From contig JAKLGA010000001.1 in assembly GCA_022710975.1 (NCBI GenBank), positions 496,001 through 560,000 of the forward strand: a stretch of 64,000 nt of DNA, in the 5' to 3' direction. The DNA is from Myxococcota bacterium. GTDB lineage: Bacteria > Myxococcota > B64-G9. The translations under genes and the position numbers were made by a program. Under the pieces are notes generated by a model, which ran no database searches, was not told where the DNA came from, and saw nothing but the letters and a program-made list of their open reading frames with translations. Shown one piece after another: positions 26,991 through 38,927 of the stretch. Within the stretch, counting starts at the first letter, position 1. The number at the start of each line of letters is the position of its first letter.

Positions 26991-27827
26991 ATGCCCGCGC
27001 GCAGCGATCGGGCCCGGCCGAGCAGCGATCTCGAGCACCTGATCATGCGCCGGGTGGGGCAAGCCATCGGCGACTTCGACCTGGTGCGCCCCGGGGATCG
27101 CATCCTGGTGGCGCTGTCCGGCGGCAAGGACTCCTTCAGCCTGCTGCGCATCCTCGAGCTCCACCGCCGGCGCTCCCCGTTCCCCTTCGAGCTCCACGCC
27201 GTGCACCTGGACGCCGGCTGGGACCCCGCCTCGGCCGATCGGGTGGCCGAGCGGGTGCGCGCCCAGGGGCTCGAGGTGGAGGTCGTGCGCCGGGACATCA
27301 AGGGCTGCGTCCAGGCCCACCTGCGGCCGAACACCAACCCGTGCGCCTTCTGCGCCCGGCTCCGGCGCGGTTTCCTGTACGATCTGGCGCACGCCCGCGG
27401 TTTCCACAAGATCGCCCTGGGCCACCACCTGGACGACCTGGCCGAGACGGTGCTGTTGAACCTGTTCTTCACCGGCCAGCTCAAGTCCATGGCCGTGGAT
27501 CTGACCGCGGACGACGGGCGCAACCGGGTCATCCGGCCGCTGGCCTACGTGGAGGCCTCACTGCTCAAGGCCTACGTCGAGGCGGTCGGCTTCAGCCCGG
27601 TCGCCGTGGACTGCCCGCACCACGCCAAGCACCAGGACCCCCGCCGGGGCATGATGCGTCGGATGATCGAGGAGCTGGCCGGGCCCTACCCCCGGGTGCG
27701 CCGTTCGCTGCTGGCGTCGCTGAAGCACGTGCGCCCGAGCCACCTGCTCGACCGGGAGCTGCGCGCGGCCTGGGCCGCGGCGGGCCACGGCAGGCGGCCG
27801 GGCGAGGTCGGGCCCGAGGAGGAGTGA
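26991..27827 (+). CDS. ttcA: tRNA 2-thiocytidine biosynthesis protein TtcA
   Basis: 278 residues, close to the usual size of the family. The PP-loop SGGKDS (about residues 43-48) binds ATP, and the pair CAFC (Cys118/Cys121) plus a third Cys (about residue 208, VDCPHH) match the iron-sulfur ligands of TtcA. The motif GHHLDDLAETVLLNL between them is also typical. The enzyme makes 2-thiocytidine at position 32 of some tRNAs from ATP and a sulfur donor. The N terminus is a short Arg-rich extension. TtuA-type thiolases are an alternative but carry two extra zinc fingers that are absent here. Located 8 bp after a small membrane protein gene. Confidence 0.9.
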   Translation: MPARSDRARPSSDLEHLIMRRVGQAIGDFDLVRPGDRILVALSGGKDSFSLLRILELHRRRSPFPFELHAVHLDAGWDPASADRVAERVRAQGLEVEVVRRDIKGCVQAHLRPNTNPCAFCARLRRGFLYDLAHARGFHKIALGHHLDDLAETVLLNLFFTGQLKSMAVDLTADDGRNRVIRPLAYVEASLLKAYVEAVGFSPVAVDCPHHAKHQDPRRGMMRRMIEELAGPYPRVRRSLLASLKHVRPSHLLDRELRAAWAAAGHGRRPGEVGPEEE

Positions 27828-27845
27828 GGGGACCGCTTGCGCCGC

Positions 27846-27876
27846 TTGCCTCCACCCCGGGGGAGGGGTGTATATT
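27846..27876 (+). promoter_or_regulatory. Possible promoter with inverted repeat before the MshEN-REC gene
   Basis: TTGCCT (27846-27851), 19 bp, TATATT (27871-27876). The spacer contains CACCCC / GGGGTG (27853-27858 and 27865-27870), which could be an operator or, followed by TATATTT, the terminator of ttcA. Confidence 0.4.
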
Positions 27877-27930
27877 TCCGGCGCGACAAGGCCGGGTCTC
27901 CCCTGGGGAGACAGCAGGAGAAGGGTCGGA

Positions 27931-29316
27931 ATGCAGAAGGCACCCATCGGAAAGATCCTGCTGGAGAAGAAGAAGATCGACCAGGCCCAGCTGGGCGCGG
28001 CCCTCGAGCGGCAGCGGCAGCAAGGTGGGCGCCTGGCCTCGATCCTGCTCGAGATGGGCGCGGCCGGCGAGGAGGATCTGCTGCGGGCGCTGTCCGAGCA
28101 GCTCGGGGTGCCGGCCGTGGATCTGGCCGGCTGCATCCTGCCCCTCTCGGCCGCGGATCTGGTGCCCGCGCAGGTGGCCAGCCAGGCCTCCATCCTGCCT
28201 CTGGGGATGCGCGAGGATCGGGTCATGCTGGCCATGGCCAACCCCCAGGACCAACAGACCATCGACGAGGTCAAGTTCGTCACCGGCAAGAAGATCGAGC
28301 CCTACGTGGTGATCGACGTGCGCCTGCGCCAGGTGCAGCGCGAGCTGTACGCCATCCGCCAGCGCGATCCCAAGCAAGAGTTCTGGCGCGGCATGCGCGC
28401 GCACGAGCCCGCGGGCAAGCTCCCGCCGCAGGGCGTGCTGACCATCGTGGCGCCCGAGCTGCCCGAACCGGACGTGAGCCTGGCGCCGGACGAGGAGATC
28501 CTGACCATCGAGGTGTCCACCAGCCAGGACGTGCTCCAGGAGATGGCCGCGGCCGAGCCCGCGGGCGGCAAGAAGGTGCTGGTGGTGGACGACGAGCCGG
28601 ACATCCTGCGCATGCTGGAGAAGGCGCTCACCTCGGAAGGCTACCAGGTGATCACCGCCACCCGCGGCCTGGAGGCGCTGCAGGCGGTCAAGAGCCACAG
28701 CCCGGCCCTGATCTTGCTGGACGCCATGCTGCCCGAGATCCACGGCTTCGAGATCTGCAAGAAGATCAAGACCAGCAAGCGCTTCGGGACCATCCCGGTG
28801 ATCATGATCAGCGCCGTCTACCGCGGCTGGCGCTACGCGCTCGACGCCAAGGAGGCCTACGGGGCCGACGACTTCTTCGAGAAGCCCTTCCGCATCGCCC
28901 AGCTGCTGAAAAGGGTGCGGGAGCTGACCGACTCCGGCGTGGCGCAGGCCGAGGCCGAACCCGAGGTGGCCAACGCAGCCTACCAGCGCGGCGTGGCGCT
29001 CTATCGGGACAAGAAGCTCACCGAGGCCGAGGCCGCGCTGCGGGAAGCGGCCCAGCTCGACCCGTTCAGCCCCAACGTGCACTACGCGCTCGCCAACGTG
29101 CTGCTGGCCCGCAACCTGATCTACGAGGCCATCCAGGAGTTCGAGGCGACCATCGAGCTGAAGCCCGACCTGTTCGCCCCGCTGCGCAGCCTGGCGATCC
29201 TGTACCAGAAGAAGGGGTTCCGGAACAAGGCCATCGAGCTGTGGGAGCGGGCCCTGCGCTGCAGCCCGGAGGGCGAGCGCGACGAGGTCAAGGCGCAGCT
29301 CCTCAAGCTCCTGTGA
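27931..29316 (+). CDS. MshEN - response regulator - TPR protein
   Basis: 461 residues. Residues about 1-150 match the N-terminal domain of type II/IV secretion ATPases (MshEN fold): GRLASILLEMG, LLRALSEQLG and the VMLAMANPQD strand. Some MshEN domains bind c-di-GMP; the key RLGxx motif here reads RLASI, so binding is uncertain. A receiver domain (about 212-335) has DDEPD, the phospho-Asp in LLDAMLPE (about residue 264), a Ser in the T/S position (MISAVY) and the Lys in EKPF. Two or three TPRs follow (about 345-461). There is no output DNA-binding domain, so it likely signals by protein contacts. It is 36 bp before the GltJ/AgmX-like gene. Confidence 0.87.
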   Translation: MQKAPIGKILLEKKKIDQAQLGAALERQRQQGGRLASILLEMGAAGEEDLLRALSEQLGVPAVDLAGCILPLSAADLVPAQVASQASILPLGMREDRVMLAMANPQDQQTIDEVKFVTGKKIEPYVVIDVRLRQVQRELYAIRQRDPKQEFWRGMRAHEPAGKLPPQGVLTIVAPELPEPDVSLAPDEEILTIEVSTSQDVLQEMAAAEPAGGKKVLVVDDEPDILRMLEKALTSEGYQVITATRGLEALQAVKSHSPALILLDAMLPEIHGFEICKKIKTSKRFGTIPVIMISAVYRGWRYALDAKEAYGADDFFEKPFRIAQLLKRVRELTDSGVAQAEAEPEVANAAYQRGVALYRDKKLTEAEAALREAAQLDPFSPNVHYALANVLLARNLIYEAIQEFEATIELKPDLFAPLRSLAILYQKKGFRNKAIELWERALRCSPEGERDEVKAQLLKLL

Positions 29317-29352: not shown

Positions 29353-31230
29353 ATGCGGTTCACCTGCGACAAGTGCAATGCCCTGTACTCCATCGCGGAC
29401 GACAAGGTCCGCGGCAAGCTGGTGCGGTTTCGCTGCAAGCGATGCCAGCAGGTCCTCCTGCTGCGGGGGGACGGGGCGGCGCGCGCGGGAGGCGCCGCGC
29501 AGCCGCCCGCGCCGGAGGCCGCGTCCGCCGGCCGTCCGGGCGCCCCGGTGGAGTGGTTCGCCGGCCTGGACGGCCAGGAGCAGGGCCCGATCGGGCTGGC
29601 CGAGCTGGAGCGCCGGCTCCGCAGCGGCGCCCTGACGCAGGAGCACTTCTTCTGGCGGGAGGGGATGCAGGACTGGTTGCCGCTCGAGCAGGTGCCCGAG
29701 CTGGCCCACCTGGCGGGCACGGCCGGCGCGCGGCCGGCCGGGTTGCCCGCCCCCCCGCCGGTCCCGCGCGACGCGCGGCGGGACGAGCGCCAGCGCGCGG
29801 TGGAGCGGGAGCGCGAGTCCGCGCTGCAGCTGCGCCGGGAGGCGGACCGCAAGGCGGCCGAGGCGGAGCGCAGGGCGGCCGAGGCCGAGCGCAAGGCGGC
29901 CGAGGCGGAGCGCAAGGCGGCCGAGGCCGAGGCGCGCCGCGCCCAGGCCGCGCGCGAGGCCGAGCAGGCCGAGGCCGAGATCGGCCGGGTGGACACGGGC
30001 AAGTTCAGCACGCTCGAGGGCGGCGCGATCGCCCCGGCGGTCCGCAAGGTCGTGCCGCAGGCCTCCAGCGTGGACGAGTCCGATGCGGAGCGCAAGCAGC
30101 TCGTCGAGCGGGCCATCAAGCGGCGGGCCAAGGCGCGCGTCGGCCGGCACGAGGAGCGCATCGCCGACGAGTTCTTCAGCGGCGGCGAGGAGGGCCTGGA
30201 CGACGAGTCCCTGCCGCCGCCCCCGGTGGCTGGTGACGCGTCCGAGCTGGCCCAGCGGCTCCACCAGGAGTCCATCCACGAGGAGTACGCCATCCTGGAG
30301 GGCAACGACCCCGAGGCGCAACGCCGGCGCCAGGAGCGCGACGCGGAGGTCGCCCGGGTGGCCGCCGCGCAGGCCGGGGTCAGGTCGCAGAAACGGCGCC
30401 TGGCCATGGCGCTGCTCTCCATGGGGCTGGTGATCGCGGTGCTGGGCGGCCTGCTGGCCCTGGCCCAGGTGCAGGGCTGGTTCTCGGCCTTCGGCGGGCT
30501 GAGCCTGCAGGACGCGGACGGGGAGCTGCTCGACCTCGAGCTGGCCCAGGCCGGCAACCTGTCGCCCGAGGAGGCGCGCCGCCTGCGCGAGCGCCTCCTG
30601 ACCAGCCGCAAGGCGGGCGCGCGGCGGAACGGCAAGCGCCCGGGCGGGGCGGGCAAGGCCGGCCGCGATCCGGGCGCGGAGGCGCTGGCCGACGTGCTCG
30701 GCCAGGGCAAGCCGGCGCTGAGCGAGTCCGAGGCGGCCCTGGCCGCCTTCTACGGGGCGCAGGCGGGGGACAAGCCCGAGAGCCCGACGCTGCGCGGCGT
30801 GGGCGGCGTGGACTTCAGCGCCGCGGGGCTCCAGCTGCCCGGCGGGCTGGGCGGTCCGGCCGACCCGCTCGCGCCGGCGCTCGCCAAGCCCGAGGTGGTC
30901 CCGGACGCGCCGGGCGCGGCGGGCGGGCCCCGGCGGTTGACCGAGCTGCAGATCCGGCTCACGGTGCAGCGCAACCGACCCCAGGTGAAGTACTGCCTCG
31001 AGCGCCAGCTCAAGAAGGACTCGTCCGTGGCCGGGAAGCTCGAGCTCACGGTGCGGGTCCGGCCCGACGGCCGGGTGGAGTGGGTCAAGGTGGCCACCGA
31101 GAAGTTCCGCAACACCTTCCTCGAGGACTGCCTGGTGAAGAAGGTGCAGCAGTGGATGTTCCCCACCTTCGATGGCGAGGCCTACGAGCTGAGCGTGCCG
31201 CTGCTGCTGACCGCCCAGGATACCTACTGA
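29353..31230 (+). CDS. GltJ/AgmX-like protein: zinc ribbon, GYF, coiled coil, TonB-like end
   Basis: 625 residues. Residues 1-37 form an MJ0042-type zinc ribbon (Cys5, Cys8, Cys28, Cys31). A GYF_2-like domain follows at about 72-122 (WFAGLDGQEQGPIG, then REGMQDWLPL). Residues about 145-210 are a coiled coil built on 7-residue KAAEAER repeats. One membrane helix lies at about 350-372. The last 100 residues (from 527) match the AgmX/PglI C-terminal domain, a TonB-like fold with RNRPQVKYCLE. This order is that of GltJ/AgmX of the Myxococcus gliding apparatus, where cytoplasmic modules contact MglA and the periplasmic part transmits force. Here a role in a related motility or envelope machine is inferred. 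No other glt genes are in the window. Confidence 0.85.
   Translation: MRFTCDKCNALYSIADDKVRGKLVRFRCKRCQQVLLLRGDGAARAGGAAQPPAPEAASAGRPGAPVEWFAGLDGQEQGPIGLAELERRLRSGALTQEHFFWREGMQDWLPLEQVPELAHLAGTAGARPAGLPAPPPVPRDARRDERQRAVERERESALQLRREADRKAAEAERRAAEAERKAAEAERKAAEAEARRAQAAREAEQAEAEIGRVDTGKFSTLEGGAIAPAVRKVVPQASSVDESDAERKQLVERAIKRRAKARVGRHEERIADEFFSGGEEGLDDESLPPPPVAGDASELAQRLHQESIHEEYAILEGNDPEAQRRRQERDAEVARVAAAQAGVRSQKRRLAMALLSMGLVIAVLGGLLALAQVQGWFSAFGGLSLQDADGELLDLELAQAGNLSPEEARRLRERLLTSRKAGARRNGKRPGGAGKAGRDPGAEALADVLGQGKPALSESEAALAAFYGAQAGDKPESPTLRGVGGVDFSAAGLQLPGGLGGPADPLAPALAKPEVVPDAPGAAGGPRRLTELQIRLTVQRNRPQVKYCLERQLKKDSSVAGKLELTVRVRPDGRVEWVKVATEKFRNTFLEDCLVKKVQQWMFPTFDGEAYELSVPLLLTAQDTY
29851..29931 (+). 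repeat. 21-bp tandem repeats coding for coiled-coil heptads
   Basis: Three full and one partial copy of a 21-bp unit (29851-29871, 29872-29892, 29893-29913, then partial) encoding KAAEAER-type heptads. Near-identical DNA makes it prone to copy-number change, which would lengthen the coil in whole heptads. Confidence 0.7.
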
Positions 31231-33255: not shown

Positions 33256-34815
33256 ATGAAGCCGGAAGAGCTCGCAGCCACCTTGCACCCCCTGGAGATC
33301 CGGGTCCTGCTGGCCCTGGGGCCCGAGGGCCGGCTGGCCGAACGGACCTTCTCCGCCGAGGGGGTGACGCAGGCCCAGCTACGCACCGTGATCGAGTGGC
33401 AGCTCGCCAAGGAGTGCATGCGCCTGCTGGCCACCGAGGAGAAGACCTGGGTCGAGCTGACCGAGCTGGGCGAGAAATACGCCGCCCAGAAGACCCCGGC
33501 CCAGGCCATCTTCAAGCTGTTCCAGACCCAGACCACGCTCTCCAGCGCCCAGCTCGCGGCCTCGCTGCCGGTCTACGACCAGGCGGAGAGGGGCAGCGCC
33601 TTCGGCGCCCTGAAGAAGGAGAACTGCCTCCTGGAGGTCGAGAATGGCGTCTTCTCCTGGAAGCCGGCGGCCAGCCTGCCCGCGCGTTTCTCGCTGGAGC
33701 AGGCGCTGATCGAGAAGGTGAAGGCCGCCGGACGCCAGGAGATGTCGGCGCTCACCCTCGAGGAGAAGTCCCTGGTGGAGGGGGGCAGCAGGAAGCGGGG
33801 CAAGGAGAAGGGCGTGTTCCGCCTGGTGACCGAGCAGGCCCGGCAGCTCGAGCTGACCGAGCTCGGCCAGGCGGTGCGGGAGGCCGCCCGGAAGCTGGGC
33901 CGCTCCGGGGACGAGGTCAACGCCCTGACCTCGGCCATGCTGGCGGACGGCTCCTGGCGCGGCAAGTCCTTCCGGCGCTACAACCTCCAGATCCGCCCCC
34001 CGCGCCGGGTGGCCGGCCGGCGCAACCCGTACCGCGAGTTCCTCGACCGCGTGCGGCGCAAGCTCATCGGCCTGGGCTTCGAGGAGATGCGCGGCCAGCT
34101 CGTGGAGACCGAGTTCTGGAACATGGACGCGCTGTTCATGCCCCAGTTCCACTCGGCGCGCGACATCCACGACGTGTACTTCGTGAAGCAACCCACGCAC
34201 GCCCCGGCGCTGGAGGAGCCCTTCGCCTCCCGGGTGGCCGCGGCCCACTCCGACGGCGGCCAGACCGGCAGCCGCGGCTGGGGCTACGACTTCGATCGCG
34301 AGCGCTCCCGGCGGCTGGTGCTGCGCAGCCAGGGCACGGTGCTGTCCGCGCGCTGGCTGCACCGGGCCGCGGTGCCGGGCAAGTACTTCGCGGTGGCGCG
34401 CTGCTTCCGCTACGACCAGGTGGACGCCACCCACGCGCCGGACTTCTTCCAGTGCGAGGGCATCGTGCTGGGGGAGCAGATCGACTTCGTGACCCTGCTC
34501 GGCCTGCTCAGGCTGTTCGCCAAGGAGGTGGCCCGGGCGGAGGAGATCCACTTCGCCCCGGCCTACTTCCCCTTCACCGAGCCCTCGGTGGAGATCCACG
34601 TGAAGCACCCGACGCTCGGCTGGACCGAGCTGGGCGGGGCGGGCATCTTCCGGCCCGAGGTGGTCCGGCCGCAGGGCGTGGAGGTGCCGGTGATCGCCTG
34701 GGGCCTGGGCCTGGATCGCATGGCCATGATGGCCATGGGACTGGACGACATCCGCGAGCTGTTCTCCTCCGATCTCAACCGGATGCGCACCACCAACGTG
34801 CGGCTGAGGGACTAG
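33256..34815 (+). CDS. pheS: Phenylalanyl-tRNA synthetase alpha, archaeal/eukaryotic type
   Basis: 519 residues; bacterial PheS is about 330, archaeal and cytosolic eukaryotic alpha chains about 500. The N-terminal 240 residues hold winged-helix modules (LHPLEIRVLLALG and later helices), as in the archaeal type, in place of the bacterial coiled coil. The catalytic core has class II motifs in their archaeal form: VETEFWNMDALFMPQ (about 287), ARDIHDVYF, THAPDFFQCEG and, as motif 3, AWGLGLDRMAMM (about 484). It charges tRNA-Phe together with the beta chain. The pheT start is 3 bp after its stop. Since both chains are of this type, the pair was probably acquired or inherited as a unit; base composition is like its neighbours. 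Confidence 0.92.
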   Translation: MKPEELAATLHPLEIRVLLALGPEGRLAERTFSAEGVTQAQLRTVIEWQLAKECMRLLATEEKTWVELTELGEKYAAQKTPAQAIFKLFQTQTTLSSAQLAASLPVYDQAERGSAFGALKKENCLLEVENGVFSWKPAASLPARFSLEQALIEKVKAAGRQEMSALTLEEKSLVEGGSRKRGKEKGVFRLVTEQARQLELTELGQAVREAARKLGRSGDEVNALTSAMLADGSWRGKSFRRYNLQIRPPRRVAGRRNPYREFLDRVRRKLIGLGFEEMRGQLVETEFWNMDALFMPQFHSARDIHDVYFVKQPTHAPALEEPFASRVAAAHSDGGQTGSRGWGYDFDRERSRRLVLRSQGTVLSARWLHRAAVPGKYFAVARCFRYDQVDATHAPDFFQCEGIVLGEQIDFVTLLGLLRLFAKEVARAEEIHFAPAYFPFTEPSVEIHVKHPTLGWTELGGAGIFRPEVVRPQGVEVPVIAWGLGLDRMAMMAMGLDDIRELFSSDLNRMRTTNVRLRD

Positions 34816-34818
34816 GCC

Positions 34819-36489
34819 ATGCCGACCATCACCGTCGATCCGAGCGACTTCCAGGAGCTGCTGGGCTTCGCCATGGACGAGGCCGCCCTGGGCACCCACC
34901 TCGATCTGGTCAAGGGGGAGTTCAAGGGCCGCGACGAGGCCGGCCAGTGGCGCGTGGAGCTGAACGACACCAACCGCCCCGACCTGTGGTCGGCCGAGGG
35001 CATCGCCCGCCAGCTGCGGGCGGCCCGCGGCCGGCGCCGGGACTACCCCTTCTTCCGCGGCGAGCCGTGCGGCGAGATCCGCGTGGAGCCGGGCCTGGAG
35101 GCCATCCGGCCCTGCGTCGCGGCCTTCGTCGTGCGCGGGGTGCGGGTGACCGAGCGCTCGCTCGCCCAGCTCATCCAGACCCAGGAGAAGCTGGCCGAGA
35201 ACTTCGGCCGCAAGCGCAAGGACGTGGCCATCGGGGTTTACAACCTGGCCAAGATCCGCTTCCCGGTCAGCTACCGGGCCGTGGATCCCAGGGCGCACGC
35301 CTACGTCCCGCTGGGCTTCGAGGAGCCCATGCCGCTCGCGGAGATCCTCACCCGCCACCCCAAGGGCATCCAGTACGGCGACGTCCTGGCCGGCCACGCG
35401 CGGGTGCCCTACCTGACCGACGCCGGGGGGCTCACGCTGAGCATGCCGCCGATCATCAACTCGCGCGAGCTGGGCGAGGTGCAGCCGGGCGACAGTGAGC
35501 TGTTCGTCGAGGCCACCGGCACCGACCTGGCCAAGGTGCTGCTGGCGCTCGACATCCTGGCCTGCGATCTGGCCGATCGGGGCGGGCGCGTCCAGCGCGT
35601 GCGGACCGTCTTCCCGGCCGCCACCCCCTTCGGCCGGGAGGTGGACGCGCCGCGCGATCTGGACCTGGGGCTCAGCATCCCGCTGACCGAGTTCGGGCGG
35701 CTCCTGGGCGTGCCGGTCACCCCGGTCGAGGTGGACAACGTGCTCGAGCGCTACGGCTGCGAAGTCCACGTGGAGGGCCAGAGCGTGCGGGTGGTGCTGC
35801 CGCCCTACCGGGCCGACTACCTGCACCCGGTGGACGTGGTCGAGGACTTCGCCATCGCGCGCGGCTACGAGACCTTCGAGCCGCGCATGCCCCGGGACTT
35901 CACCGCGGGCCGCGCGGACCCCGTCAGCCTGCTGGAGGACAAGACCCGCGACGCGATGATCGGCCTGGGCTACGAGGAGATCATCTCCAACATCCTCACC
36001 AGCCGGACGGAGCTCCGGACGCACATGCAGCGCGAGGCCCCGCCGCTGGTCGAGGTGGCCAACGTGATGAACGAGAACTTCGCCGCGCTGCGCGACTCGC
36101 TGCTGCCCTGCCTGCTGCGGGTCGAGGCGCGCAGCGGCACCGCCACCTACCCGCACCGGCTGTTCGAGGCCGGCGAGGTGGCCTGGTTCGATCCGCAGGC
36201 GCCGCACGGCTCGCGCACCCGGCTGCTGCTGGGGGCGCTGGTGGTGCACCGCGAGGCCAGCCTGTCCGAGGCGCACGCCGACCTCGACTTCCTGGCCCAG
36301 CAGCTCGGCGGCGAGGTCAGCCTGCGCGAGGAGGAGCACCCCTCCTTCCTGCCCGGCCGCTCCGCGCGCGTGCTGCTGGCCGACCGGCCCATTGGCTGGC
36401 TGGGAGAGCTGCACCCGGGCGTGCTCGAGCGCTGGCAGATCGGCGTGCCCGCGGCCGCCTTCGAGCTGGAGCTCGAACCGCTCCTGTGA
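34819..36489 (+). CDS. pheT: Phenylalanyl-tRNA synthetase beta, archaeal/eukaryotic type
   Basis: 556 residues, the length of archaeal beta chains; the bacterial beta chain is near 800 with an extra tRNA-binding EMAP domain at the N terminus and an FDX-ACB domain at the C terminus. Neither is present here. The signature ELNDTNRPDLWSAEGIAR (about residues 52-69) is that of the archaeal/eukaryotic beta chain. B3/B4 editing-type region follows (about 90-270, with IGVYNLAKIRFP), then the B5 DNA-binding-like fold (about 285-355) and a catalytic-like, inactive class II fold. The next gene overlaps or starts within 2 bp of its stop, so the three genes form one unit. Confidence 0.92.
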   Translation: MPTITVDPSDFQELLGFAMDEAALGTHLDLVKGEFKGRDEAGQWRVELNDTNRPDLWSAEGIARQLRAARGRRRDYPFFRGEPCGEIRVEPGLEAIRPCVAAFVVRGVRVTERSLAQLIQTQEKLAENFGRKRKDVAIGVYNLAKIRFPVSYRAVDPRAHAYVPLGFEEPMPLAEILTRHPKGIQYGDVLAGHARVPYLTDAGGLTLSMPPIINSRELGEVQPGDSELFVEATGTDLAKVLLALDILACDLADRGGRVQRVRTVFPAATPFGREVDAPRDLDLGLSIPLTEFGRLLGVPVTPVEVDNVLERYGCEVHVEGQSVRVVLPPYRADYLHPVDVVEDFAIARGYETFEPRMPRDFTAGRADPVSLLEDKTRDAMIGLGYEEIISNILTSRTELRTHMQREAPPLVEVANVMNENFAALRDSLLPCLLRVEARSGTATYPHRLFEAGEVAWFDPQAPHGSRTRLLLGALVVHREASLSEAHADLDFLAQQLGGEVSLREEEHPSFLPGRSARVLLADRPIGWLGELHPGVLERWQIGVPAAAFELELEPLL

Positions 36490-36491
36490 CC

Positions 36492-38927
36492 ATGCCCGAG
36501 CGAACCTGCCAGGCCGAGGGCCCGCTGGAGGCGGCGGTCCGGGCCCGCCTCCCCCACTCGGTGCTGGCCGAGGCCAGCGCGCTCGATCGCGAGCTGTGCC
36601 GCGCGGCCGCTGGCGCCGCGGGCGACGCGCCCGCCGACTGGGCCTTCCTGCTGTGGGGCATCGAGGCCTTCGCCGACCACTACCCCTCCACCCTGGTAGG
36701 CGCCCCGGCCGCGGTGAGCGCGCTGGGCGCGGGATGCCTGGAAGCCGCCGCCCGCGCCCCGTCCGCGGCCCTGCGCCAGCGCGCGGCCGCCGCCTCGCTG
36801 CGCCTCGCCTCCAGCGTGTGCACCGAGGTGTCCCGGGTGGGCGCCGATCGGGTGGCGCCCGAGCTGCCCCGCGGCCTGACCGGGCTGCTGACGGCGCTCG
36901 GCCAGGGGCACGCGGCCGAGCTCGGGCCGGACGAGCTCCCGCGGCTGCGCGAGATCGGCCGGGCGGTGGTGCTGCTGGCCGAGGAGGGCCGGCCGCCTGC
37001 GCTGTGGTTCGGCCTGCTCGATCGCCTGCTGGAGCTGCTGCTCGGGGTGACCCGCGCGGCGCTCGAGCGCGAGGCGGGTTACGACGGGCGCTGGGACGCG
37101 CAGGCGGAGGCCGGGGAATTGGCACGCTCGCTCGGGCTGCTCGCGCCGGTGCGCGCCGCGCGCCTGGACGAGGATCGGGCCTGGCTGGGAGGGCTGGAGT
37201 CGGCCTGGCGCGCGGGCCGGCGCTCGTCCACCGAGGTCTTCATGGATCTGCTGGAGTACGAGCGGCCCGCCGCGCGCGCCGCGGCCTGGGAGGCCTGGTT
37301 GCGGGCCGTGCTGCCCGCGGCGGGCCCTGCGCCCGCGCCCACCGCCCGGGCGCTGCTCCAGGCCGGCCTCACCGACTGGCTCGCGCGCACCCGCGACCGC
37401 GGACACCTCCTGCGCCTCGCCCGGGGCCTGCGCGGCCTGGCCGCCGCCGGCGGCCCGCAGGCCGGGGGCGTGGCCGGGGTCCTGGGCGCGCGCCTCGCGG
37501 AGGAGGCGGGACGCGGCGCCCTGGAGCCGGTCCACGAGGCGCTGCGCTCCGCCGCGGCCGCCTGGCTGGAGGCCGAGGGGCCCGGGGCCCTGGCGCAGGC
37601 GCTGGCGCTGCGCAGCGGCCCGGTGGCCGGGTTGCCCCTGTCGCTGGCGGATGTGCGCTGGCGCCTCGGGCTGCTCGAGGCGCGGCCGGGCTGGGCGCGG
37701 GCGCTGGTGCTCGACACCCTGGCGGCCTTCGGCCTGGAGCGCGTGCGCCTGCCCGAGGCCGGCGCCGGCGCCGCGGAGCTGGCCGAGCTCCTGGCCGCGC
37801 TCCTCGGCCGCGGCTGGCCCGAGCCCCTGAGGTTCCCGCTGCGGGCCCTGGTGCGGCTGGCGCCGCTGCCGCCCCTGCAGCTCAGCGGACCGACCACCCG
37901 CGCGACCCTGCTGGCCCTGGCGCCCGCCGGCCCGAGCTACCTGGGGGATCTGCGCGAGCGGGTGCTGGATGCGCCCGGGCCGGACAACCTGGTGGACGCG
38001 GAGCGGGTGCTCGAGTTCTGGCGCAGCGGGGAGCCGCAGGCGCTCGGCGGGCTGGCCAGCCCGGACGCGCTGGCCACCCTGACGCTCACCGTCCCGCGCG
38101 ACGCGGACATCCGCAGCCTGCTGGAGGGCCTGGCGCAGCACGCCCCGGGCGCGGACAAGCGCGGGGTGCGCTGGCTGGCCCACCTGCCGGCCACCTTCCA
38201 CGAGGTCGAGACGCTGCGCAAGCTGGCGGGCTTCGCCGGGCTGCACGCGGAGGCGGTCCAGACCCTGGCCTGCATGCTGCGCCTGCACCGGGCGCTGGCG
38301 GAGCGCTACGCGGCCCGGCGCCCGCGCGCGGCGCGGGCGGACGCGCGCCCCGTCGATGAGCTGCTCGCCAGGGCCGACGAGCTGCTCGGCCGGAGCGGCG
38401 CCGCGCCCGGGAGGCTCATGGGGGACGAGGCCGGCGCCTGTTTCGAGGGGCTGCCCGCCTTCGGGCGCCTGGAGCGCTTCGCCGACGAGCTGCGCCTGGG
38501 GGCCGAGCTGGAGCTCGTGCTGGAGCAGCTCGCCAGGCGGGTGCCACCCGAGGGACCGGCCGGGCGGGAGGTGCTGCTGCGCATGCTGCGGTACGCCCGC
38601 GCGAGCGGCCACGCCCTGGACGGGCTGCAGGCCCGGCTGGAGGGCGCGGCTGGGCTCACCGCGGCGCTGCGCGGCGCGGCGGGGGAGGAGTCCGCGGCGC
38701 TGCGCGCGGGGCTCCTCGCCGAGCTCGGGCCGTACGTGCTCGGCTCCTGCCGGCGGCTGCTCGAGAACCCCCTGGCGGAGCCCACGCCGGACTACCGCCA
38801 GGCGCTGGAGGCGGCGCGGGGCGCCGGGCTCGCGCGGGTGGCCGAGGTGCTGGGCGCCCACCTGGTGGACGAGCTCCTGGGCGCTGACGGGGGGCTGCAG
38901 TCCTTGATGCGATACGTGCGGGGCTGA
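36492..38927 (+). CDS. 811-residue helical protein of unknown function
   Basis: 811 residues from the ATG at 36492; a GTG at 36486 overlapping the pheT stop (GTGA) would add two residues. The sequence is almost entirely Ala/Leu/Arg/Glu helices with no signal peptide, membrane helix, nucleotide-binding loop or metal motif. Short helix pairs recur irregularly, so a HEAT- or TPR-like solenoid is possible. It is coupled to pheT and has no promoter of its own. A role in tRNA charging is therefore suggested by position only. It ends before a 9-bp tandem repeat and the convergent radical SAM gene. I do not recognise the family. Confidence 0.7.
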   Translation: MPERTCQAEGPLEAAVRARLPHSVLAEASALDRELCRAAAGAAGDAPADWAFLLWGIEAFADHYPSTLVGAPAAVSALGAGCLEAAARAPSAALRQRAAAASLRLASSVCTEVSRVGADRVAPELPRGLTGLLTALGQGHAAELGPDELPRLREIGRAVVLLAEEGRPPALWFGLLDRLLELLLGVTRAALEREAGYDGRWDAQAEAGELARSLGLLAPVRAARLDEDRAWLGGLESAWRAGRRSSTEVFMDLLEYERPAARAAAWEAWLRAVLPAAGPAPAPTARALLQAGLTDWLARTRDRGHLLRLARGLRGLAAAGGPQAGGVAGVLGARLAEEAGRGALEPVHEALRSAAAAWLEAEGPGALAQALALRSGPVAGLPLSLADVRWRLGLLEARPGWARALVLDTLAAFGLERVRLPEAGAGAAELAELLAALLGRGWPEPLRFPLRALVRLAPLPPLQLSGPTTRATLLALAPAGPSYLGDLRERVLDAPGPDNLVDAERVLEFWRSGEPQALGGLASPDALATLTLTVPRDADIRSLLEGLAQHAPGADKRGVRWLAHLPATFHEVETLRKLAGFAGLHAEAVQTLACMLRLHRALAERYAARRPRAARADARPVDELLARADELLGRSGAAPGRLMGDEAGACFEGLPAFGRLERFADELRLGAELELVLEQLARRVPPEGPAGREVLLRMLRYARASGHALDGLQARLEGAAGLTAALRGAAGEESAALRAGLLAELGPYVLGSCRRLLENPLAEPTPDYRQALEAARGAGLARVAEVLGAHLVDELLGADGGLQSLMRYVRG

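Follow-up and report, generated by a model that had tools for sequence, protein, structure and literature searches.

An archaeal-type phenylalanyl-tRNA synthetase as the sole PheRS of a myxococcote and a shared trait of its family

The Myxococcota bacterium studied here is confirmed to encode a complete phenylalanyl-tRNA synthetase (PheRS) of the archaeal/eukaryotic type, and this pheS-pheT pair is the only PheRS of the genome. We assign a probability of roughly 0.85 to the reading that it is a functional (alpha-beta)2 enzyme which the ancestor of the family acquired by horizontal transfer, most likely from a bacterium in the circle of the planctomycetes and the Caldifarciminota group, with loss of the native pheST.

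The gene pair and its present neighbourhood

Both genes begin with ATG and are separated by 3 bases (Table 1; positions are those of the window, that is, the whole 64-kb stretch of DNA that was analysed). A preliminary description of this DNA, whose coordinates, lengths and reading frames prove exact, had assigned both chains to the archaeal/cytosolic type by their length and motifs, and profile searches agree: alpha exceeds the NCBIfam cut-off for archaeal PheS (NF003210, 350 bits) over residues 9-516, and beta matches pheT_arch (TIGR00471) end to end and above cut-off, while its 109.2 bits against the bacterial model TIGR00472 stem from the shared B5/catalytic-like part and remain below the cut-off of 402.65. 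Alpha is also above the cut-off of the general bacterial pheS model TIGR00468 (327 vs 237 bits). The absence of EMAP and FDX-ACB from beta, likewise claimed beforehand, holds: a Pfam search of the chain returned B5 and CLM and no tRNA_bind (EMAP/OB, PF01588), FDX-ACB (PF03147) or Phe_tRNA-synt_N, all of which Pfam finds in the PheRS of a phylum relative (L189), the first two in its PheT. The signature proposed for the pair, ELNDTNRPDLWS, is present in beta and corresponds to DTNRPDLWSAEG of Pyrococcus horikoshii PheT. By comparison, the bacterial PheST of four other Myxococcota (L189-L192) catalyzes the same reaction with a class II core and a B5 domain, but consists of an alpha chain of ~350 aa and a beta chain of ~810 aa with tRNA_bind, B3/4, B5, CLM and FDX-ACB, encoded in an rplT-pheST-ihfA operon.

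The closest PDB chains are P. horikoshii PheT (2cxi), which the N-terminal fold of the predicted beta chain resembles, and eukaryotic cytosolic enzymes (3l4g, 8s8b); the model of alpha can be aligned over its full length with the human cytosolic alpha chain (3l4g_C, Foldseek). The catalytic half of the alpha model is weak (mean pLDDT 72) and the model was used for the N-terminal part only, where the first 200 residues form small helix/strand domains at high confidence. The winged-helix N terminus of the preliminary description stands as far as confident modules and a full-length match to the human chain are concerned, and a winged-helix identity of the individual domains is plausible.

Table 1. 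Positions of the gene pair, its domains and neighbouring genes in the window
Feature	Position	Strand	Evidence or remark
Response-regulator/MshEN/TPR gene	27724..29313		precedes GltJ-like gene
Zinc-ribbon/GYF_2 protein	29353..31230	+	AgmX/PglI-type C-terminal domain related to gliding motility protein GltJ
Divergent upstream gene, 594 aa	31300..33084	-	no known family; 63-67% identity in L034, L037, L039; absent from planctomycete loci
pheS, archaeal/eukaryotic-type PheRS alpha, 519 aa	33256..34815	+	NF003210 520.5 bits, PF01409; start matches family relatives
Alpha N-terminal extension (~residues 1-220), region of DBD/winged-helix domains in archaeal/eukaryotic PheRS	33256..33915	+	confident helix/strand modules in model; full-length Foldseek match to 3l4g_C; NF003210 from residue 9
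Class II motif 2 region RCFRYDQVDATH, alpha residues 382-393	34399..34434	+	F-R-x-D in related rows
FPF of amino-acid pocket, alpha residues 438-440	34567..34575	+	invariant in A2
pheT, archaeal/eukaryotic-type PheRS beta, 556 aa	34819..36489	+	TIGR00471 448.6 bits; predicted structure vs 2cxi, Foldseek TMt 0.91
Beta editing-site stretch (L199, S208, N214, E231, T233)	35413..35517	+	aligned with P. horikoshii L202, S211, N217, D234, T236
B5 domain of beta	35677..35868	+	PF03484, residues 287-350
Catalytic-like (CLM) domain of beta; chain end, without FDX-ACB (B8)	35902..36474	+	PF17759, residues 362-552
Downstream gene, 813 aa, overlaps pheT stop by 4 bases	36486..38927	+	homologues beside pheT in L032, L033, L035, L036, L038, L039, 28-38% identity
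Radical SAM protein, putative DNA modification/repair rSAM_link_UDG kind, with C-terminal helix-hairpin-helix	38991..40118	-	TIGR03916 277 bits, below cut-off 343.5

The pair is found away from the native site, in the host genome on a different contig, and its neighbourhood is conserved across the family while sharing nothing with planctomycete loci. GC3 is 0.975 in pheS and pheT alike, as in neighbouring genes, in keeping with the host-like composition remarked on earlier; composition and conserved neighbourhood together indicate that the acquisition is older than the family. The 813-aa downstream gene has no Pfam or NCBIfam match, and in six of the eight other family genomes pheT is followed by a fast-evolving homologue; given this recurrence and the overlap of its start with the pheT stop, its translation may be coupled to that of pheST. 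An Rfam search of the window detected no RNA element such as a T-box.

Archaeal or planctomycete DNA that entered a MAG by contamination or mis-binning might be suspected where the assembly is in 29 contigs and the relatives are MAGs. This explanation is refuted in practice, both by the setting of the pair, in 64 kb with conserved family synteny, host GC3 and a GltJ-like gene nearby, and by its presence in nine independent assemblies from which the native gene is missing as well.

Distribution in Myxococcota and the emptied native operon

In the host genome, which is 7.13 Mb long and 98.6% complete, PF01409, the family of the PheS catalytic core, is matched only once. The second, bacterial-type pheST for which the preliminary description recommended a search was not found there, and no bacterial PheT exceeds the TIGR00472 cut-off in the host or in the eight other genomes of its family, genome-wide statements that refer to searches of the genomes. 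Scores above the pheT_arch cut-off occur in nine of 195 Myxococcota genomes, comprising all nine of the host family and none of the 186 others; in this sample the kinship labels give no other family in the order or class of the host family. The relatives are MAGs deposited as Deltaproteobacteria or Myxococcales bacterium and placed in Myxococcota, the phylum to which, by the taxonomy of these relatives, the host, previously called 'deltaproteobacterium-like', also belongs.

Such a distribution weighs on ancestral retention, whereby a bacterial ancestor possessed both types, of which the archaeal one was kept in this family. Old and fully ameliorated as the gene is, retention would require its loss in every other lineage, and the family sequences are placed inside those of other phyla; we consider it very improbable.

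The native site is recognizable. In the four other Myxococcota the gene order is infC-rpmI-rplT-pheS-pheT-ihfA, with thrS preceding infC in the three whose locus extends that far; a tRNA-Val gene precedes thrS in all three of these and a tRNA-Pro gene follows ihfA in two, and in the fourth locus (G009) ihfA is followed by a merR-like gene. The locus was read in eight genomes of the family (L181-L188): there a merR-like gene instead comes immediately after rplT, and the block lies between tRNA-Val and tRNA-Pro wherever these were found. Set against rplT-pheS-pheT-ihfA in relatives, the rplT-merR arrangement of the family lacks pheS, pheT and ihfA in an operon whose synteny is otherwise preserved. 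The native pair would have been lost from it, along with ihfA, after the archaeal-type pair arrived. The disappearance of ihfA with pheST, downstream of which it lies in other Myxococcota, is an observation on the operon only. Separately, free-standing B3/4-domain proteins occur in some members of the family, as ORFs of ~225-235 aa that match only the B3/4 domain of bacterial PheT (positions ~219-335; G002:C74, G003:C172, G005:C398).

Bacterial relatives and the origin of the pair

Outside Myxococcota, 392 planctomycete genomes were sampled, 30 of which score above the pheT_arch cut-off, as do all four genomes of the WOR-3/Caldifarciminota group (L118-L120, L041). Bacterial PheT above cut-off is absent from all 21 planctomycete and Caldifarciminota-group genomes with archaeal-type PheRS that were checked, the latter four included. 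Spirochaetes, put forward earlier as the textbook exception among bacteria, are thus a real exception but not the sole one. Searched for among plasmids and viral contigs, the beta chain gave no match, and among phages weak bacterial-type matches only.

Trees, as the preliminary description had advised, were built from beta alone, alpha alone and the two concatenated; their main points agree, and the pair groups with the archaeal type and not with bacterial PheS/PheT. The archaea sampled are mostly one DPANN phylum plus Pyrococcus, spirochaete sequences are not included, and MAGs make up most of the planctomycete and family genomes. The host family is monophyletic in the concatenated tree (support 100/100) and joins planctomycete type A (ten sequences, nine of them in this tree) at 99/98, and then the Caldifarciminota group at 100/100; the archaeal rows nearest to this bacterial clade are a Woesearchaeota-like subset. 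The family nests among the type A branches: planctomycete monophyly is rejected at AU p 0.029, a modest value from a test made after the tree was seen, and the exact sister within planctomycetes is weakly supported (80-88) and not the same for alpha and beta. After Dayhoff recoding, which dampens the effect of the shared high-GC composition, the topology persists at lower support. Other Planctomycetota (L098-L100, L103, L105-L111) carry a type B archaeal-type PheRS with a longer beta chain and the editing residues LSNDT; it is placed apart from type A, from which it follows that Planctomycetota acquired archaeal-type PheRS at least twice, independently.

The replacement by old horizontal transfer that had been suggested is well sustained by the family-wide occurrence of the pair, the loss of native pheST and a tree position away from bacterial PheS/PheT, and we read these sequences as recording one old replacement in the family. 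The common ancestor of this deep-branching family would have taken up pheS-pheT horizontally, and, because the family nests in a bacteria-only clade in the alpha, beta and concatenated trees, the donor was probably a bacterium rather than an archaeon. The donor line would most likely be a bacterium of the planctomycete/Caldifarciminota circle, itself supplied earlier by a Woesearchaeota-like archaeon. We give about even odds to a more general proposal, in which a bacterially adapted clade, once derived from a Woesearchaeota-like archaeon, passes among the Caldifarciminota group, some Planctomycetota and one Myxococcota family, displacing pheST and re-tuned to a U20 tRNA-Phe.

Alternatively, an archaeon may have passed the pair directly to the myxococcote ancestor, with planctomycetes receiving theirs from Myxococcota or independently from the same archaeal donor line. 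Woesearchaeota-group archaea are indeed the nearest non-bacterial kin of the clade, and planctomycete type B, elsewhere in the tree, demonstrates that several independent bacterial acquisitions exist; however, direct transfer is rendered unlikely by the union of the family, type A and the Caldifarciminota group in a single clade that excludes every archaeon sampled (100/100), and by the nesting of the family among planctomycete branches.

A bacterial intermediary also distinguishes our preferred reading from the published case. Archaeal-type PheRS has replaced the bacterial enzyme in Spirochaeta, Treponema and Borrelia, for which Thermococcales-like donors were proposed (Andam and Gogarten 2011, PMC3191353), and only part of the spirochaete phylum has it (PMC3191353). 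There, too, both subunits were replaced together, the native form is absent, the trait is clade-wide and chain lengths are similar, and this likeness in size class and in the kind of replacement could be taken to mean that a single spirochaete-like acquisition from Thermococcales lies behind all bacterial archaeal-type PheRS. We find this quite improbable, since the published spirochaete PheRS groups with Pyrococcus and Thermococcus, whereas Pyrococcus PheT falls outside the clade holding the family (96-97 SH-aLRT, beta tree), an indirect argument for a separate event. The nearest kin of the Myxococcota family are instead bacterial, followed by Woesearchaeota-group archaea, and in this family, unlike the spirochaetes, the emptied native operon is demonstrable.

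Catalysis, tRNA-Phe and implications

In this enzyme class II motif 2, the Phe pocket and motif 3 are all intact, and they are conserved across the clade. Motif 2 reads F-R-x-D in all rows of the family, planctomycete type A, Caldifarciminota and the Woesearchaeota group, as against F-R-N-E in eukaryotes; the pocket is FPF in the family and in Woesearchaeota-group rows, FPY in most other archaea and NPY in eukaryotes. An adaptation to bacteria was ruled out as the meaning of FRxD/FPF, because Woesearchaeota-group archaea have the same signature, which marks ancestry. The editing residues are LSNET in all nine family members (LSNDT in P. horikoshii, with E also in most archaeal rows), and with L, S, N, E and T so kept, editing of Tyr-tRNA-Phe is expected. 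Alpha would activate Phe and charge tRNA-Phe(GAA), the B3/B4 editing site of beta would clear Tyr-tRNA-Phe, and the N-terminal domains of alpha would grip the tRNA in place of the bacterial B8 domain. Architecture, the lack of B8/FDX-ACB and EMAP, and editing residues are all shared with the archaeal and eukaryotic cytosolic (alpha-beta)2 enzymes (2cxi, 3l4g), from which the Myxococcota enzyme would differ in serving a bacterial U20 tRNA-Phe.

The host (contig C6, ~71.5 kb) and seven family relatives have tRNA-Phe genes of the usual bacterial kind, with U20, GAA and A73. In the family, position 27-43 is A27-U43, as against G27-C43 in other Myxococcota. Bacillus subtilis tRNA-Phe has the same A27-U43 arm with a bacterial PheRS, and a tie between the loss of G27-C43 and the archaeal enzyme was therefore dropped; U59 is not diagnostic as a marker either. 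At position 20, Phe identity is reported to differ, with G20 in yeast and Aeropyrum pernix and U20 in Escherichia coli (PMC9976931), and archaeal/eukaryotic PheRS-tRNA-Phe pairs have been described as non-cross-reacting with bacterial pairs (PMC3275996). Judged by its sequence, tRNA-Phe was not replaced along with the synthetase, and because it keeps the bacterial U20, the enzyme would have to accept U20. This differs from the DPANN-derived TyrRS and TrpRS of CPR bacteria, which likewise stand in for the bacterial enzymes but are accompanied by archaeal tRNA identity (PMC5370408). A pattern search for tRNA-Phe of the Woesearchaeota group, the putative donor, gave only tRNA-Ile-like matches. 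One planctomycete with type B PheRS (G308) has unusual tandem tRNA-Phe/tRNA-Gln genes (L153, 1142-1215 and 1497-1567) with a shortened D loop and C at the position-20 equivalent where others have T.

While the kind of replacement is known from spirochaetes, the open-access full-text literature searched did not mention an archaeal-type PheRS for Myxococcota, for Planctomycetota or for the WOR-3 group, nor the emptied native pheST site. Both PheRS genes serve as bacterial phylogenetic markers (PMC3798382), and since alpha passes TIGR00468, marker trees built for these groups can pick up a foreign gene unnoticed. Cross-domain replacement of an essential two-subunit synthetase is rare, and with the native operon recognizably emptied and position 20 of the tRNA left as it was, this family makes it possible to test how a bacterial tRNA comes to be served by an archaeal synthetase.
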